Below are positions 2,181 to 42,550 of a stretch of 51,512 nucleotides of DNA, piece after piece. Numbering within the stretch: the first letter of the stretch is position 1; each line of letters starts with the position of its first letter. The position numbers were made by a program, and so were the translations under genes. This stretch comes from Verrucomicrobiales bacterium (GTDB taxonomy: Bacteria > Verrucomicrobiota > Verrucomicrobiia > Verrucomicrobiales > DEV007). The stretch lies in assembly GCA_028033615.1 (NCBI GenBank), contig JAOFDG010000006.1, positions 1 to 51,512 of the forward strand, read 5' to 3'. A model generated the notes under the pieces. That model searched no databases. It worked only from the letters and a program-made list of their open reading frames with translations, and was not told where the DNA came from.

Positions 2181-5100
2181 ATGAAACTACTTACCTTTTT
2201 GTTTTTCGTATACACACTTTTAGATATAATTCATGCGGCCCCTCAAAGTGCACCTCCTGCAGTTAAAAATGCTATTGACTCGCTGCTGAATCCAAAAAAG
2301 GGTCCTTCTGCACTTCAAAAATCCTGTGAAAAAATCAGCCGCGAACTAAAATCTTTCGTTTTTGCTAATCTTAAACAAGGAACAAATTTTGATAAAGCGC
2401 TAAAAAAGAATCAGACTGAAAATGAACTTAGCTCATTTATCAGTAATTTTGACAAGCAACAAAGTATCGATGCATTCATCCTTCATTCTGTTGTTTTTTT
2501 AATAAAATTTCCTGAAAGCAAAACATATCCAGAAAGACTTTGGAAGTTAGCAGCAATTGTAGAAAGGCATGAGAGGAAATCTGAAAACAATTTAATTAAC
2601 AAGCCTTTTTTTTCTGCACTAGTTAATGCTTGTAGCCTTTTACCCCCTGATAATACTTTTAATATTGAAGGACGATTTTTAGCGGCACGACATTACGGTA
2701 GAAAAGGTGAAACTGACAAGCAAGAACAGATTGTTAGAGAAATTCTGAAAAGGGATAAACTTAACGCGGAAGTTTATTTCACGTGCCTCAGGGAACTAGG
2801 TTTAATAAACGAGTTAGCTGAAAATTTTGATAAAGCTTTAAAACTGTATGAAGTAACCAATCAGCAAATTATAGAATTTCCCCAATACTTAGACCTTCGA
2901 ATGAGGTCAATTTTCATACATCTTGAATTAAGTAATATCGACGAAGCAACCAAGACAATAGAAGAAACGCGGAAAATACCTAAAACGAAAAGAGATTTAT
3001 ATACATCGAATGACATTTTAGATGAATTTTTACTCCTTAATAATGACAACGGAGAACTAAAGAATTATTGGATTAATTCGAATCAATGGTGGTCACATTG
3101 GTTAGCTTTCAGGAAAAATAATATTCCTGGCAAAAACTTAAATCACATTCGAATCCCCGATGTAAACAAAAGGTTAGGATTCAGTAACCTTCTTAGTAAA
3201 GATATAGAAAAAAACAATAAAATAGAATTTTTTTCTACTCTAGACCTTCTGCTTCACGGTCTTCGTTGGTCCCCTTCGCTTCTTAATGAGGCAGGACCTG
3301 CACTATGCTTTCTTCTTCCACAAATTATACCTAACAAAGAAAAAGAAATTCATAATCTTATTTTATCTATATGTAAACCAATCTCAGATAAAGAAAATCA
3401 ATTCAATAGAAGAGCTAAACTTTATAAATCTATTAGCTATTCATCTGTTAAAAGTCATGACGAAGCAATCGTCACAATTAGAGAATTCCTGAAAAACGAT
3501 AAAACTTCTGACGAGGTAACTGAAACAATAGTTAGACTTTGGGCCCACATTGCTATCAACGAAAATAAAGATACTATTGGTCCTGAGGCAGCCTTAATCA
3601 AATTATTATCAACAGAAAGAAAACTCAACAATCGCGCCCAAACAGTCCTCTACCTTTCGCAATTATTTAGAAAAAACGAAGCCTATAATAAAGAGAAGGA
3701 ATTACTGATCACTGAAACTCAGAATACTGATATCTTAAAAGACAAAAATTCATTACAGGTCTTTGTATTAAGATTAAAGGAACTTGATAGAGGAATAGCA
3801 AATGACGAAGAACTTTCAAATGCGTTCATCGAATGGGGGGCGGAACATAGCCCTACGTTTTTAAATTTTACGTTACAAGACGGACTCAATGATGATCGTT
3901 TATTAAATGAAAATATTGAAGACCTTATCTTTACTCCTTCTCAAGTTAAATTGTCCCAAGAAGAAGCATTGAAATTGAGATTGCTAGTTGCTCAATCACA
4001 AAATTTTTCCAGAATAATTCGAGAACAATCTTTTCAACAAGCTTTCTCGGAGATTTACTCTAGTACATTTAGGTACTCCTCTGCCAGAAAGATGCTTCGT
4101 TCGGTTGTTAATGATGAGCGTTTTCCGTTACGTCTCTCGCAAAACATACTTTTGCTAGCCATGGAAGATGCTATGAGTCGGGGGGAAAAGAGAGACATAA
4201 TTTATGCTATAACTCATCCGTTAATGGACAGAAATGCTCCTAGGATACAAAACCTGATTCAAATTTATGGGCGTTATGCTGATACCGACCTCGATTCGTC
4301 AGACTCTCTTAAAAAGTGCTATAAAGATGTAACGAATAGCATCAATTTCCCTTCAAGCTTTGGAGTGATCGCTAAGATATTCGAACGATCATTGGAGTTG
4401 GGAGACATTGACCTTGCTGAAGAAATATCGCTAGACTCAAAAAATTGGAAGACGCCCCCTGCACTTGAACGGCGTAAAGAAATTATTTCAAAAGCTTTAA
4501 GCCAATCTTTGGAGCGCTCCGAAGAAAATATAGTATTTGCGAAAGAAATGAGGGCAATTGCTATTAAGTACATTAAAAATATTGATCGTGATAATATATT
4601 CTCTTCAGCCGACTATAGAAAAGAACTGAATTTAAAAACACTATCCGAAAAGAATGGATATGAATGGCTTGCAAAAAGAGGTTTGAATAAAAACACTGTC
4701 GAATCGTCCCCAAGATTTTGGTTCGATCTAGCTGAAATTATGCCAAGAGACGACAATCAGGTAGACTTCTCATTCGCTCTGGTAGAGACACTGTTAAAGA
4801 GCAATATTAATGACCTTGAAAAATCATTCAGTGTATTTTCGACTCCCTCCATAATTGACACTGATGATTTAATTTTGCGAGAACGACTATTTAAAGTTCT
4901 TGAGAAACATGATGATTTAAAAACATCACCATATACTCATGCTGCAATAATCATTACAATGACTCAATCAGCAGACATTAGGGATGGAAAGATTGTAAAC
5001 ATTAATGAAAGATGGGAAACACTAGAACACCCAATCCTTGAGGACGTCAGATTATCAACAAAGATTGGTTATTTTATGGCAAGAAATATGATTCCAGACT

Positions 5101-5645
5101 TGAAGAATACATTAAATTCATTAAGTGATGAAAAATTATTTTCCTCTGAATTCATTGATGTTTCTGTGCCAGCTTTAGCTTTTGCTGGAATGAAGGAAAA
5201 ACTCAATAATGCTCTATTAGTTTCGGCTAATTTGATGAATCAATATTTACCAAAGGCAGTCAGAACCTTAGATTTCCAGCTCATTCGTTTCATTTATAGA
5301 TATGATGAGCTAAATACAACTAATAATAAAATCCCAAAAAATTGGTTTACCTCAATTGATGGACAGATCAAATCTGAACGAGATAGTTATTCTTTAAGAA
5401 TAATGGAAGCCGAACACAAAGGAAATTGGAAAAGTTTAACAAAGTGGTCAGGAAAAGCGGTGGCAGAATATCCAACCTACTATAACTATTATAGACCAAG
5501 AGGAATTGCTCTGTATAAGATTGGTAAAATTGAATCAGCAATCAAAGCATTAGAGGTTTACATTAAGTTCAGTAAAGACGAAAGCACATGGACAGAAACA
5601 ACAGAACTACTTAAAAAATTAAAATTTCAAAATGATCCCAACTAA
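2181..5645 (+). CDS. Large secreted helical-repeat (TPR-like) protein, function unknown
   Basis: A 1154-residue protein with a signal peptide (MKLLTFLFFVYTLLDIIHA, probable cleavage after HAA). The mature part is almost entirely alpha-helical in pattern. Recognisable TPR-like units occur around residues 165-270 (for example EVYFTCLRELGLINELAENF, with ALKLYEVT next) and near the C-terminus (ALYKIGKIESAIKALEVYI). No catalytic motif is visible. The C-terminus overlaps the start of the protease gene by 14 nt, suggesting translational coupling. Expected location is the periplasm or cell surface, where TPR arrays act as scaffolds. I do not recognise a named family; large degenerate TPR proteins of this type are common in Verrucomicrobia. 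Confidence 0.8.
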   Translation: MKLLTFLFFVYTLLDIIHAAPQSAPPAVKNAIDSLLNPKKGPSALQKSCEKISRELKSFVFANLKQGTNFDKALKKNQTENELSSFISNFDKQQSIDAFILHSVVFLIKFPESKTYPERLWKLAAIVERHERKSENNLINKPFFSALVNACSLLPPDNTFNIEGRFLAARHYGRKGETDKQEQIVREILKRDKLNAEVYFTCLRELGLINELAENFDKALKLYEVTNQQIIEFPQYLDLRMRSIFIHLELSNIDEATKTIEETRKIPKTKRDLYTSNDILDEFLLLNNDNGELKNYWINSNQWWSHWLAFRKNNIPGKNLNHIRIPDVNKRLGFSNLLSKDIEKNNKIEFFSTLDLLLHGLRWSPSLLNEAGPALCFLLPQIIPNKEKEIHNLILSICKPISDKENQFNRRAKLYKSISYSSVKSHDEAIVTIREFLKNDKTSDEVTETIVRLWAHIAINENKDTIGPEAALIKLLSTERKLNNRAQTVLYLSQLFRKNEAYNKEKELLITETQNTDILKDKNSLQVFVLRLKELDRGIANDEELSNAFIEWGAEHSPTFLNFTLQDGLNDDRLLNENIEDLIFTPSQVKLSQEEALKLRLLVAQSQNFSRIIREQSFQQAFSEIYSSTFRYSSARKMLRSVVNDERFPLRLSQNILLLAMEDAMSRGEKRDIIYAITHPLMDRNAPRIQNLIQIYGRYADTDLDSSDSLKKCYKDVTNSINFPSSFGVIAKIFERSLELGDIDLAEEISLDSKNWKTPPALERRKEIISKALSQSLERSEENIVFAKEMRAIAIKYIKNIDRDNIFSSADYRKELNLKTLSEKNGYEWLAKRGLNKNTVESSPRFWFDLAEIMPRDDNQVDFSFALVETLLKSNINDLEKSFSVFSTPSIIDTDDLILRERLFKVLEKHDDLKTSPYTHAAIIITMTQSADIRDGKIVNINERWETLEHPILEDVRLSTKIGYFMARNMIPDLKNTLNSLSDEKLFSSEFIDVSVPALAFAGMKEKLNNALLVSANLMNQYLPKAVRTLDFQLIRFIYRYDELNTTNNKIPKNWFTSIDGQIKSERDSYSLRIMEAEHKGNWKSLTKWSGKAVAEYPTYYNYYRPRGIALYKIGKIESAIKALEVYIKFSKDESTWTETTELLKKLKFQNDPN

Positions 5646-37655: not shown

Positions 37656-37739
<84 letters not shown>

Positions 37740-37966
37740 CTTTAATTGCAAAAGCGTTAAAGTTAAATCTCATCCCCGGGAGAAATATTGGGAAAGTAAA
37801 CACGATCTTAATTAAAAAGTTTACTCAAAAAATCGTAGGCTATATTAATACTAAACACTGCGTTGAAATTGGGAATGTTAGCCAATTTTTTGAACTAATT
37901 AAAACAAACCAATCAGAAGAGATTATTGTACTAGCCAGCGATCCAACTATATATATTGTTTACTAA
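37740..37966 (+). other. Open frame without a normal start between the tRNA and the desaturase
   Basis: The frame runs from GTG inside the tRNA (37709) to a TAA at 37964-37966. The region after the tRNA encodes about 74 residues, with plausible protein-like stretches (KVNTILIKKFTQKIVGYINT and EEIIVLASDPTIYIVY), but no ATG, GTG or TTG start lies outside the tRNA. It may be the tail of a gene displaced by insertion, or chance. I recognise no family. Confidence 0.25.
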
Positions 37967-37980
37967 GGAGACATTCTCCA

Positions 37981-38004
37981 GTGAATAAATTTAACGATGA
38001 ATAA
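37981..38004 (+). other. Possible 7-codon leader frame with strong Shine-Dalgarno
   Basis: AAGGAG at 37965-37970 is followed after 10 nt by GTG, then six codons and TAA at 38002. The frame overlaps the desaturase ATG (37997) by 8 nt. It could couple translation into the desaturase, or simply show that the ribosome site serves the ATG at 37997 from a longer distance. Confidence 0.3.
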
Positions 38005-38995
38005 TTGCTCAGGTCCAAAGCAGGAAGTTATCTCTGGAATGGAGGATTTTGTGTCCACCCAACTACAGTATTTAAAGTCAGTAGAAGAGAGCTGGCAACC
38101 ACAGGACTGGTTACCAGATCTGACTAGGGAGGATTGGATAGAAAGTGTACAAGCCTTCCGCGAACCCGCTGAGGGCCTATCAGACGCAGTCCTAGTGGTT
38201 TTAGTTGGTGACATGGTAACTGAAGAAGCCCTACCAACTTATCAAACATTGATCAATGGATTTGAAGGTATCACGGACAAGAGCGGCGCCGACCCAAGCC
38301 CTTGGGCACAGTGGACCCGTGGTTGGACTGCGGAAGAGAACCGGCATGGAGATTTACTTAACAAATACCTTTACCTCACCGGACGAGTTGATATGCGTGC
38401 AGTAGAAGTGACGATTCAGAATTTGTTGCGCAATGGTTTTGATCCCAGCACGGCGCAGGACCCTTACAAAGGATTTGTTTACACCTCCTTCCAAGAACGG
38501 GCCACCAAAATTTCTCACAAGAATGTTGCCAAACTCGCAAGGTCCGAAGGCGACGAAAGCTTACAGGGAATTTGTAGTGCGATAGCTTCAGACGAAGCTC
38601 GCCACGAAAAAGTATATACAAATTTTATGCGACACATTTTCGAGCAAGATCCTAACGGGGCAATAATGGCGTTTTACGATTTAATGCGCGCCCAAATTGT
38701 GATGCCCTCTCATTTGATGCAGGATGGAACTGACCCTAACTTGTTCGAAGATTTCTCCGCAATTGCACAGCAATTAGGCGTCTACACAGCCAAACACTAT
38801 GCGAAAATCGTCGATCACTTGGTCAGCACTTGGAATGTCGAAAACTTAACCGGACTCAGCGGTGAATCAGCGAAGGCTCAGGATTATTTATGCCTCCTAG
38901 GTACTCGTTATGCAAAATTGGCCGACCGGAGTGAACGACGCTCATCCAGAATCGAGCAAAGGAAATTTAGTTGGATCTTTAATCGGGAAGCTTGA
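37997..38995 (+). CDS. Soluble acyl-ACP desaturase, plant stearoyl-ACP Delta9-desaturase type
   Basis: A 332-residue ferritin-like di-iron enzyme. Iron ligands are in place: Glu76/77 (VTEEALPTYQ), Glu114 and His117 in EENRHGD, Glu167 in SFQERAT, Glu200 and His203 in DEARHEKVY. The conserved runs (VVLVGDMVTEEALPTYQTLI, EENRHGDLLNKYLYLTGRVD, DNLFDHFSA-like NLFEDFSAIA, QRLGVYTAK-like QQLGVYTAKHYAK and FSWIFNREA at the end) follow the plastid stearoyl-ACP desaturases of plants closely, as I recall them, and lack their transit peptide. It introduces a double bond into ACP-bound acyl chains using O2 and ferredoxin. The row 38341-38400 is about 47% GC by count. Sits just after the tRNA gene. Confidence 0.93.
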   Translation: MNNCSGPKQEVISGMEDFVSTQLQYLKSVEESWQPQDWLPDLTREDWIESVQAFREPAEGLSDAVLVVLVGDMVTEEALPTYQTLINGFEGITDKSGADPSPWAQWTRGWTAEENRHGDLLNKYLYLTGRVDMRAVEVTIQNLLRNGFDPSTAQDPYKGFVYTSFQERATKISHKNVAKLARSEGDESLQGICSAIASDEARHEKVYTNFMRHIFEQDPNGAIMAFYDLMRAQIVMPSHLMQDGTDPNLFEDFSAIAQQLGVYTAKHYAKIVDHLVSTWNVENLTGLSGESAKAQDYLCLLGTRYAKLADRSERRSSRIEQRKFSWIFNREA

Positions 38996-39002
38996 CCCCA
39001 AT

Positions 39003-40370
39003 TCAGGCCTGTATCTCAGAGACAGTCCCATTGCTATCGGCATAATTGTCTCGTTCAATCCCTAAGGCTCTGAGTTGAGTCAGCCAAAGGTTCGCAAGAG
39101 GCGTACCCCTCTTGCAATGAACGTGCTTGCCCATTTTTAAGTTGCCTCCACCGCCACCGGCAACAACTAATGGCAGGTCATTGTACTGATGCGTTGTTCC
39201 ATCTCCCATACCTGCACCTAAGGTAAAGATTGTATTATCTAGTAGTGTAGTGCCATTAATTTCTTTGATCTGGTCCATTCGTTCGAGAAGTCTAGCAAAG
39301 GCCGACACATGGAAACGGTCCAACAGAAGAAGATGCTCAAGGTGGTTACCAATAGAGTGAGTCATAGCATGATGACTGTAAGGCTTGTCTAAAATGCCTT
39401 CCCAATTAGTAGGAGTCGTCCAACGCTCAGGTCCAAGCATTAGAGAACCTACATTTGTTAGTCCATTTTGTAATGCAGTAACCAAAAGGTCACCCATTAA
39501 ATGAATGTACTCATTACGCGGCAAATGCTCGGCAGGGCGCTCGATTCTGGCTTCAGCCAACTCTAGCTTCATTTCATCGATCCTATCCATTCTAGTTTCA
39601 ATGGTGCGTATCGATTCAAGATATTCTTCAAACTTCTTTCGATCATCAACACTTAAACGTTTTTGCAACTGACTCGCATTGCCAAGGGCAAGGTCAGTTA
39701 TATTACGAAACCGAGTATTTACCTGAGTACCAAATAATCGATCATAGACTTTGCGCGGATTTCTCATTGATGGCGCCACATGACCAGTTCCATACCAGGA
39801 CATATTATCAAAGTATATCGATTCAATGTTATTCTTATGATCATTGCAGCTCAATTCGAGTGTTGAATATGGTGTGTTCTGTCCAATACTGTCAGCTGCG
39901 ATGTGGTCGAGGGTACGAGTTAATGGGTATGCAGAGCTTTTTACCTCGTATGGCGCAACACTGGTCAGGAAACAAGACGCGCACTGTGCATGGGAATCTG
40001 TCCCATGTTGAAACGTACGATCCATGCCAGTAATTAGCGTCACTTTTTCCCGCATTTTATGCAAAGGAGCTAAGGTCGGCGTAAGAGTCATAGGATGACT
40101 GCCAGGCGGAACTGTCTTTCCTTCAAACCTCCAAACATTATTTTGACCTGCAAAACCAGGCAACGGGCGATCACCTTCTCCAGGAAAGAATCCACGACGC
40201 GTAATTCCGTTAGGAAGGTAAAAGAAAGCCAGTCTCTGCGCAGGACTCTCTTTTACACTTTTACCGTTATCAGCAAAGCTCTCAAGCCAAGGCAAACTCA
40301 AAGAGGATCCACCGGCACAAGCTATGAACCTACGGCGTGAAACGGGTCGAATGTTTTCTTTGTCTCTCAT
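39003..40370 (-). CDS. Exported DUF1552 family protein
   Basis: A 455-residue protein with a twin-arginine signal (VSRRRFIACAGG, about residues 10-21). Family segments: LAFFYLPNGITRRGFFP, ITGMDRTFQHGTDSHAQCAS, the LDHIAADSIG region, KFEEYLESIRTIETRMD and the C-terminal LPLVVAGGGGGNLKMGKHV with TPLANLWLTQLRALGI. DUF1552 proteins are encoded beside DUF1587/DUF1592-type cytochrome proteins across Planctomycetes and Verrucomicrobia; their function is unknown, though the fold is sulfatase/DUF1501-like. Here the partner lies 71 nt upstream on the same strand, so the pair is probably cotranscribed and acts in the periplasm. Confidence 0.93.
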   Translation of the reverse strand: MRDKENIRPVSRRRFIACAGGSSLSLPWLESFADNGKSVKESPAQRLAFFYLPNGITRRGFFPGEGDRPLPGFAGQNNVWRFEGKTVPPGSHPMTLTPTLAPLHKMREKVTLITGMDRTFQHGTDSHAQCASCFLTSVAPYEVKSSAYPLTRTLDHIAADSIGQNTPYSTLELSCNDHKNNIESIYFDNMSWYGTGHVAPSMRNPRKVYDRLFGTQVNTRFRNITDLALGNASQLQKRLSVDDRKKFEEYLESIRTIETRMDRIDEMKLELAEARIERPAEHLPRNEYIHLMGDLLVTALQNGLTNVGSLMLGPERWTTPTNWEGILDKPYSHHAMTHSIGNHLEHLLLLDRFHVSAFARLLERMDQIKEINGTTLLDNTIFTLGAGMGDGTTHQYNDLPLVVAGGGGGNLKMGKHVHCKRGTPLANLWLTQLRALGIERDNYADSNGTVSEIQA

Positions 40371-40441
40371 ATTGGTGCTACGCTTACTTCATTTTAGTGT
40401 TAATCTTCACTCTTACAATTTTAAACTGATTAGTCTTGATC

Positions 40442-42550
40442 TCATGGGCTCTGAGGCACATTACCTTTCGAATCTTCTATCTTTTCATTTCTTTTAAAAT
40501 TGTCCATTTGTAAGAAAGGATCGCTCATAGCAATACTTTTAAGGACATCCCTCATGCCATCTTCTCCTGCCATCGCCTTATCCGTCATTTCATCGAGCGC
40601 AGGCGAATCTGCCGGATCAAGTTCACGGCTCAGAGCATAAGAAAGTAGATGAGAAATAAATCCCCTCACAAATCGGTCTTTTTCCTTAATGATGATCTCC
40701 TTGAACTCAGGAAATGTCTTGAACTCATACTGATTAAACAAAACGCCACTCACATCAACTTCACGGCCATTTTCATATTTATCACGCCAGACCCCGGTCG
40801 GACCATAGTTTTCCATGGCAAACCCCATCGGATCTATCTTGTTATGACAACCTGCGCAGTCTTTCCTCTCACGATGGAGCGCTAGCCTCTCACGAATAGT
40901 AAGCTTGGCAAGCTCATCATTATCATCCTCAGGAAGTGGAGGAATATCAGCAGGAGGAGGTTCAGGGGGATCATTAAATATTACGGCATTAATCCAAGCA
41001 CCACGAGTAATTGGCTGAGTTCTCGTTGGAGTCGCCGTCATCGTCATTATGGCCGCATTTGTAATAACGCCGCCTCGTCGGGGATCATTTAGTGGGACTC
41101 GCCTAAAGAGCTGAGTCACAACATCATGTCCAGCCTTTGCATGCCCCTCATAATTAGCTTTCAGCATAGGGTTCTCCCAAGTGTACTTAGGATCAAGCAA
41201 TTCGATGATCGAGCGATCCTCAATAAAAATGGTTTCAAAAAGGAGAAGTGGTTCAGGCATCATATGCATACTGGACCGATAGCCATCAACAAGATAGAAG
41301 TATGGAAATTTTTTAGGGTCAGGAACTGACGTTATTAAACGATCAAGCTGTAACCATTGAGCCGGAAAACTATCACAGAACCTACTCAATTTTTGATCAT
41401 TTAGCATTCGATCAATTTGAGAACTAAGAACTTGTGGGTCACTTAATTTACCTTGTTCAGCGAGATCTAGTAACGGATCGTCTGGAATGCTACTCCAAAA
41501 GAATAAAGCAAGTCGCGAAGCCAATTCAAAATTCCTAATAATCTGACTTTCATCATTTTCATCTGCTGAATTTTTAGAGTCGGAAACTCCATAAAAATAG
41601 AGAAAGTCTGGCATGCTTAGGACCACAGCGATCACACTACGCATCGTGTCTTCGAATGTTGCTCCAGTATCGAGCTGATCTAAGGTAAATTTAACGAACC
41701 TATCCAAGGTCACTGGATCAACGGGTCTTCGAAATGCACGCCGAAAAAGCTTAGTGAGCCTAGATCTAATAATCTCCTCTGCGTCTTCAGCGTTTGTACT
41801 TTCTGGAGATGCAAAGAGCCAAGGCCAGCTTCGGCACTCTTTGGAGTTCAGGTCAGGACTTTCTGAGATCGTTTGACTCAAATTAAGAAAAGACTCCATT
41901 AACAGTGGCGAGAGAGTCAAATGATCGGCACGGTTATCATAGCCATGCTCAGCACGCTTATCCTGGGGGAATGACGCGACCCCCCTGAATCCTTCCGGAC
42001 GTTGGTTATCAATGTCTTTACTTAGTGGTCGGGTCGAGATACGTACCTGTGGAGGCATCTTTTTGGTTTCAGGTTTGAAATAATTTTCGCGCCGCCGCAT
42101 AAGCCGCTCATTGAGCCTGAATATTGGACGGTCCAGCTCAAGTAAATCCACTACAGAATTATTGTACTGAAAACGGTTCATCCTCCGAATTTGGGTAGGT
42201 AAAAACGGTTGATCTTTGATGGAATCACTGAGTTTAACCTCTAACCATTTTAACAATTCTCCACGTTCAGAATCACTAAGAGGCGGCTCATCCTCCGGCG
42301 GCATTTCACGGTCCTTTACAACTCCAATTAATGCCTCGAGCAGTTCAGGTTTAGATGAAATTAAATTAGCCGATCGCAGTTCCTTCAAATTTACCTTGCC
42401 CTTAACTTTACCACCCTCCCCATGACATTTGATACAATGCGAATCTAATATTGAATTGATCCTGACCAAAGAATCATCAGCAAAAGAAGTTCCCACCAAG
42501 ATCTTCAAAAATATAAAAAAATAAAAATATCTACGAAACACCTTACCCAT
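40442..42550 (-). CDS. Exported cytochrome-type protein with DUF1587/1592/1588/1585 domains
   Basis: A 702-residue protein with a signal peptide (residues 8-24) and an N-terminal haem c motif HCIKCHGEGG (CxxCH, Cys39, Cys42, His43). Then QIRRMNRFQYNNSVVDLLEL (DUF1587), a central region with LFRRAFRRPVDPVTLDRF (DUF1595) and LASRLALFFWSSIPDDPLLD (DUF1592), and RRGGVITNAAIMTMTATPTR with a second CxxCH, DCAGCHNKIDPMGF (DUF1588), and finally FVRGFISHLLSYALSRELDP (DUF1585). Two haems suggest electron transfer in the periplasm. The substrate is unknown. Parts are markedly GC-rich (row 41941-42000 about 62% GC by count). Confidence 0.93.
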   Translation of the reverse strand: MGKVFRRYFYFFIFLKILVGTSFADDSLVRINSILDSHCIKCHGEGGKVKGKVNLKELRSANLISSKPELLEALIGVVKDREMPPEDEPPLSDSERGELLKWLEVKLSDSIKDQPFLPTQIRRMNRFQYNNSVVDLLELDRPIFRLNERLMRRRENYFKPETKKMPPQVRISTRPLSKDIDNQRPEGFRGVASFPQDKRAEHGYDNRADHLTLSPLLMESFLNLSQTISESPDLNSKECRSWPWLFASPESTNAEDAEEIIRSRLTKLFRRAFRRPVDPVTLDRFVKFTLDQLDTGATFEDTMRSVIAVVLSMPDFLYFYGVSDSKNSADENDESQIIRNFELASRLALFFWSSIPDDPLLDLAEQGKLSDPQVLSSQIDRMLNDQKLSRFCDSFPAQWLQLDRLITSVPDPKKFPYFYLVDGYRSSMHMMPEPLLLFETIFIEDRSIIELLDPKYTWENPMLKANYEGHAKAGHDVVTQLFRRVPLNDPRRGGVITNAAIMTMTATPTRTQPITRGAWINAVIFNDPPEPPPADIPPLPEDDNDELAKLTIRERLALHRERKDCAGCHNKIDPMGFAMENYGPTGVWRDKYENGREVDVSGVLFNQYEFKTFPEFKEIIIKEKDRFVRGFISHLLSYALSRELDPADSPALDEMTDKAMAGEDGMRDVLKSIAMSDPFLQMDNFKRNEKIEDSKGNVPQSP

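Follow-up and report, generated by a model that had tools for sequence, protein, structure and literature searches.

A full-length plant-type acyl-ACP desaturase in marine Verrucomicrobiales, with palmitoyl-ACP as its predicted substrate

The window, by which we mean the whole 51,512-nt stretch of DNA analysed, very probably encodes a plant-type acyl-ACP Delta9 desaturase, a soluble and O2-dependent diiron enzyme that is native to a genus of marine Verrucomicrobiales, with 16:0-ACP as its likelier main substrate and a gene that was probably acquired horizontally. Plant-type relatives occur commonly across several bacterial phyla, so the gene adds a new member to a known bacterial family, in a phylum that rarely carries it, and is not a special link to plants.

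Protein identity, iron site and genomic setting

The desaturase open reading frame is complete (ATG start, TGA stop) and encodes 332 aa. The features discussed here are as follows:

37656..37740, + strand: tRNA-Leu(AAG), just upstream of the desaturase gene and kept beside it in genus-mates L023 and L041
37966..37971, + strand: AAGGAG, a candidate ribosome-binding-site-like motif read from the sequence, about 25 nt 5′ of the ATG (beyond the usual distance)
37997..38995, + strand: plant-type soluble acyl-ACP desaturase (open reading frame, profile, PDB matches, alignment and AlphaFold2 model)
39003..40370, − strand: DUF1552 (HXXSHH) protein, the convergent neighbour of the desaturase gene, on a side that is syntenic in genus-mates

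The protein matches the PF03405 (FA_desaturase_2) profile over positions 2–325 of 325 with 462 bits (E 8e-139; curated cut-off 22.7 bits), and an NCBIfam profile search gave no match. Its best PDB matches are the castor Delta9 desaturase (E 7e-120), the ivy enzyme (2e-116) and Thunbergia acyl-ACP desaturase (down to 7e-113), whereas mycobacterial DesA2 was retrieved at E 7e-12 only. By alignment, the protein is 55% identical to the castor and 54% identical to the ivy enzyme, compared with about 24% for the Nocardia DesA-type protein L097; the claim of the initial annotation that the protein resembles plant enzymes rather than the mycobacterial DesA type is therefore borne out. The same holds for its reading of a complete iron site and long plant-matching runs: all six diiron ligands align (E76, E114, H117, E167, E200 and H203, equivalent to castor E105, E143, H146, E196, E229 and H232), and the stretches identical between plants and the desaturase include WTAEENRHGDLLNKYLYL and YTSFQERAT. 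The equivalents of castor W62 and D228 are likewise conserved. An AlphaFold2 model (pLDDT 84.2, pTM 0.86) superposes on the castor structure with a TM-score of 0.92 and an rmsd of 2.0, against a TM-score of 0.55 for DesA2. Only seven residues precede the region homologous to mature castor enzyme, and no transit-peptide-like extension is present.

The gene resides in the genome of its host lineage. Six of the ten sampled genomes of the genus carry it (window genome included) at 85–97% identity, as do two genomes of another genus of the family at 84%, and nine of 75 genomes do so family-wide; the genes downstream of it are collinear in genus-mates as far as the contigs reach. Since the window genome is a fragmented assembly, 54% complete, a foreign contig or gene introduced by binning might be suspected, but the 85–97% identical copies with common flanks in genus-mates, together with a typical bacterial mreB/mreC/PBP2 cluster (named from its sequences) that adjoins the locus on the same 51.5-kb contig, make the chance of such contamination negligible, and we rejected it on the synteny across the genus. 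The GC3 of the desaturase gene is 0.46, compared with 0.26–0.39 in 16 other coding sequences of the window, which we regard as weak evidence of transfer; composition and patchiness together suggest horizontal acquisition at some point, many of the genomes being incomplete.

Several further observations concern the surroundings of the gene. In genus-mates L021, L025 and L027, detectable synteny with the window starts only past the tRNA-Leu, as at an insertion boundary. The DUF1552 protein and its 702-aa neighbour (39003–42550) have a GC content above most of the window, and the latter resembles the planctomycete-type DUF1592 cytochrome-like proteins. A 1154-aa open reading frame at 2181–5645 has no Pfam match. 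In a third genus of the family, protein L009 (G040:C91) is a divergent plant-type desaturase, 52% identical to the window protein and 50% to castor, that groups outside the clade of the window protein.

Distribution and relation to plant enzymes

Searching 84,980 species genomes with an alignment headed by castor yielded 311 relatives. The best 80 of these are 50–60% identical to castor and carry the labels Latescibacterota, Ignavibacteria/other Bacteroidota, Gemmatimonadota, Verrucomicrobia, Elusimicrobia, Sumerlaeota, Omnitrophota and Flavobacteriaceae; no cyanobacterial relative occurs among them, and one checked "Gemmatimonadota" MAG falls among Latescibacterota in the genome collection. 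Within phylum samples, the PF03405 family is carried by 90 of 345 Bacteroidota (a count that includes a second, more distant type, about 32% identical to castor), 10 of 64 Latescibacterota and 3 of 100 Elusimicrobiota; the two matches among 288 Verrucomicrobiota are the window genome and one marginal hit (19.6 bits). Proteins L147–L156 belong to the second Bacteroidota kind, with all iron ligands present where checked and Trp at castor position 181 in the patterns listed. No relative turned up in viral contigs or phage records, and on plasmids the matches were limited to one Bernardetia homologue (46%) plus DesA-type proteins. Ignavibacteria proteins reach 60% identity to castor, compared with 55% for the window protein, so that "strikingly plant-like", as the protein had been described, is apt for its type and overstated for its closeness.

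Trees of 67 and 75 proteins (LG+C20, IQ-TREE), plus a reduced tree without long branches, were computed with plants represented by two land-plant sequences from the PDB. A branch supported 100/100 in the 75-row tree separates the plant-type group from the DesA-type and type-2 Bacteroidota proteins, and the plant-type/DesA split is supported 99/96 in the smaller one; the grouping with distant bacterial DesA proteins that would have spoken against a plant-type enzyme did not occur. Within the larger of the two, the window protein falls with Verrucomicrobiales (98/94), and these fall with Latescibacterota (100/99, again 100/99 in the reduced tree), whose proteins, at 67–69% identity, are its closest outside kin. 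Plants form a separate deep branch in the large trees. They join the main Bacteroidota group with support of 58/96 in the large tree and 98/94 in the reduced tree, which leaves Bacteroidota a fair candidate for donor of the plant gene.

Two closer ties to photosynthetic eukaryotes were weighed against these trees. Recent capture of a eukaryotic plastid gene from an alga such as a diatom or green alga, a transfer that the initial annotation had raised, would suit marine Verrucomicrobiales living alongside algae, the patchy occurrence of the gene in the phylum and the family, and the F118 and L114 residues common to diatom PtAAD and the window protein (PMC7772203). Against it stand the bacterial nearest kin in a 100/99 clade, relatives spread across many phyla, an N-terminus without a transit-peptide-like extension, and rejection of a plants+Verrucomicrobiales clade by the AU test (p 0.0097); in a comparison with two land-plant sequences, recent transfer thus finds no support, and we consider it highly improbable. 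The reverse direction, in which the window lineage would be the specific sister of the plant enzyme and Verrucomicrobiales or their kin the donors of the plastid gene, draws on the AU test allowing plants with Verrucomicrobiales+Latescibacterota (p 0.33). Yet the same test equally allows plants with Ignavibacteria (p 0.275), as it does plants outside all bacterial members (p 0.47), it rejects the pairing with Verrucomicrobiales alone, and the reduced tree joins plants to Bacteroidota, so that this direction too appears very unlikely. Because the AU test rejects plants+Verrucomicrobiales and the nearest kin are bacterial, the window gene has, as judged from these sequences, no special tie to plants; it was probably acquired horizontally from, or is shared with, other bacteria.

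The plastid SAD has been traced to a non-cyanobacterial, Bacteroidetes-like origin, with Bacteroidetes as the main source (Sato 2019, PMC6946739), and red algae, glaucophytes and cyanobacteria are stated to lack a counterpart (Sato 2021, PMC8227023). A literature search for bacterial plant-like SADs found nothing specific besides Sato 2019, the text of which names none of Verrucomicrobia, Ignavibacteria and Gemmatimonadetes (PMC6946739). The proposed bearing of the gene on the origin of the plastid enzyme is real, but it is a property of the whole bacterial clade and its outline was already published (PMC6946739). What our survey adds is plant-type carriers among Ignavibacteria, Latescibacterota, Verrucomicrobiales, Elusimicrobiota, Sumerlaeota and Omnitrophota, which widen the sampling needed to settle the source of the plastid SAD. 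The window gene is one ordinary family member; its practical value would lie in offering a testable bacterial desaturase with predicted 16:0-ACP specificity.

Proposed reaction and substrate pocket

In the family mechanism, established for the castor enzyme, a diiron site supplied by a small electron carrier uses O2 to desaturate acyl-ACP at Delta9; by homology, this mechanism would extend to the window protein. Acting as a homodimer, the desaturase would accept an ACP-bound acyl chain supplied by type II fatty acid synthesis and bind it in a bent hydrophobic pocket. There the diiron centre would use O2 and two electrons, delivered by a small redox carrier, to introduce a cis double bond at C9–C10; with 16:0-ACP the product would be 16:1-Delta9 (palmitoleate), to be used in membrane lipids. 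Among the PF00111 matches that were read across the genus, none is a stand-alone plant-type [2Fe-2S] ferredoxin, even in genome G008 (94% complete; the window genome is 54% complete); they belong to NuoG-like and formate-dehydrogenase-like proteins, and the electron donor may therefore differ from that of the plastid. Furthermore, most genus members carry a membrane desaturase (PF00487) that could provide a further route to unsaturated fatty acids, whose synthesis would then not depend on the soluble enzyme alone.

Specificity for 18:0 has been tied to eight pocket residues, M114, L115, T117, L118, P179, T181, G188 and F189 (PMC7772203). The window protein keeps four of the eight (P179, T181, G188 and F189) and departs from castor at the others (M114L, L115I, T117G and L118F), and hence lacks the full 18:0-specific set. 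All 13 Verrucomicrobial members of the clade that were checked show the pattern LIGFPTGF or LLGFPTGF; F118 is likewise present in 13 of 13 Latescibacterota-group members, 12 of which have L114-L115-S117-F118-P179-A181. In plant 16:0 enzymes, a bulkier residue at castor 118 has been described as a key determinant (PMC8002970), and the diatom enzyme PtAAD, with F118, A181 and L114, is 16:0-specific, changing all three having abolished 16:1 production (PMC7772203; PMC8360179). Because Phe at castor 118 and Leu at 114 match such 16:0-ACP-specific enzymes, palmitoyl-ACP is the likelier main substrate and we predict a palmitoyl-ACP Delta9 desaturase; the "stearoyl" of the initial annotation is probably wrong. 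A stearoyl-ACP (18:0) enzyme of the same family is a less likely though credible reading, to which the castor-like T181, P179, G188 and F189 and a Gly at 117 that could lengthen the pocket would lend themselves, but F118 has repeatedly been linked to 16:0 specificity (PMC7772203, PMC8002970). Pocket length is uncertain because Gly at 117 is smaller than the castor Thr and T181 is castor-like.

Latescibacterota-group proteins L012, L014, L017, L049 and L130–L133 carry L114, F118 and A181, the three PtAAD variants (PMC7772203). This pocket match, read from residues, may hint at where the diatom plastid gene came from. We consider it improbable that Verrucomicrobiales and Latescibacterota form a palmitoyl-ACP Delta9 desaturase lineage that gave rise to the diatom plastid enzyme; Sato 2019 placed the diatom homologues within Bacteroidetes (PMC6946739).

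Comparison with known systems

Mycobacterial DesA2 (1za0) and the actinobacterial DesA-type proteins belong to the same superfamily, and the iron ligands are alike in the aligned DesA-type rows. Assignment of the window protein to that type is ruled out by the identity of about 24% and its separate clade, to which the DesA2 match (E 7e-12, TM-score 0.55) and the 100/100 branch may be added. The acyl-ACP desaturases of Bacteroidota such as Winogradskyella and Bernardetia are also plant-type PF03405 proteins, but they are only 45–47% identical to the window protein, have the pocket W-L-D-V-I-T-N-F and form a separate clade.

Phaeodactylum PtAAD/PAD, a 16:0-ACP Delta9 enzyme, carries Phe and Leu at castor positions 118 and 114, respectively, as the window protein does (PMC7772203), in a comparison made through reported residues; unlike the window protein, it is a eukaryotic plastid enzyme with A at 181. 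The castor (Ricinus communis) Delta9 stearoyl-ACP desaturase (PDB 1afr / 1oq4) is matched over its full length (55%, TM-score 0.92), with the six Fe ligands and the W62 and D228 equivalents in common; the window protein differs in its M114L, L115I, T117G and L118F changes and in having no transit peptide, and no plastid-type ferredoxin was found in its genus. The closest outside group is formed by the Latescibacterota desaturases (e.g. L012, L017 and L049, some from MAGs labelled Gemmatimonadota), which are 67–69% identical, lie in the same 100/99 clade and have F118 and L114 in common with the window protein, with A181 and S117 where it has T181 and G117.
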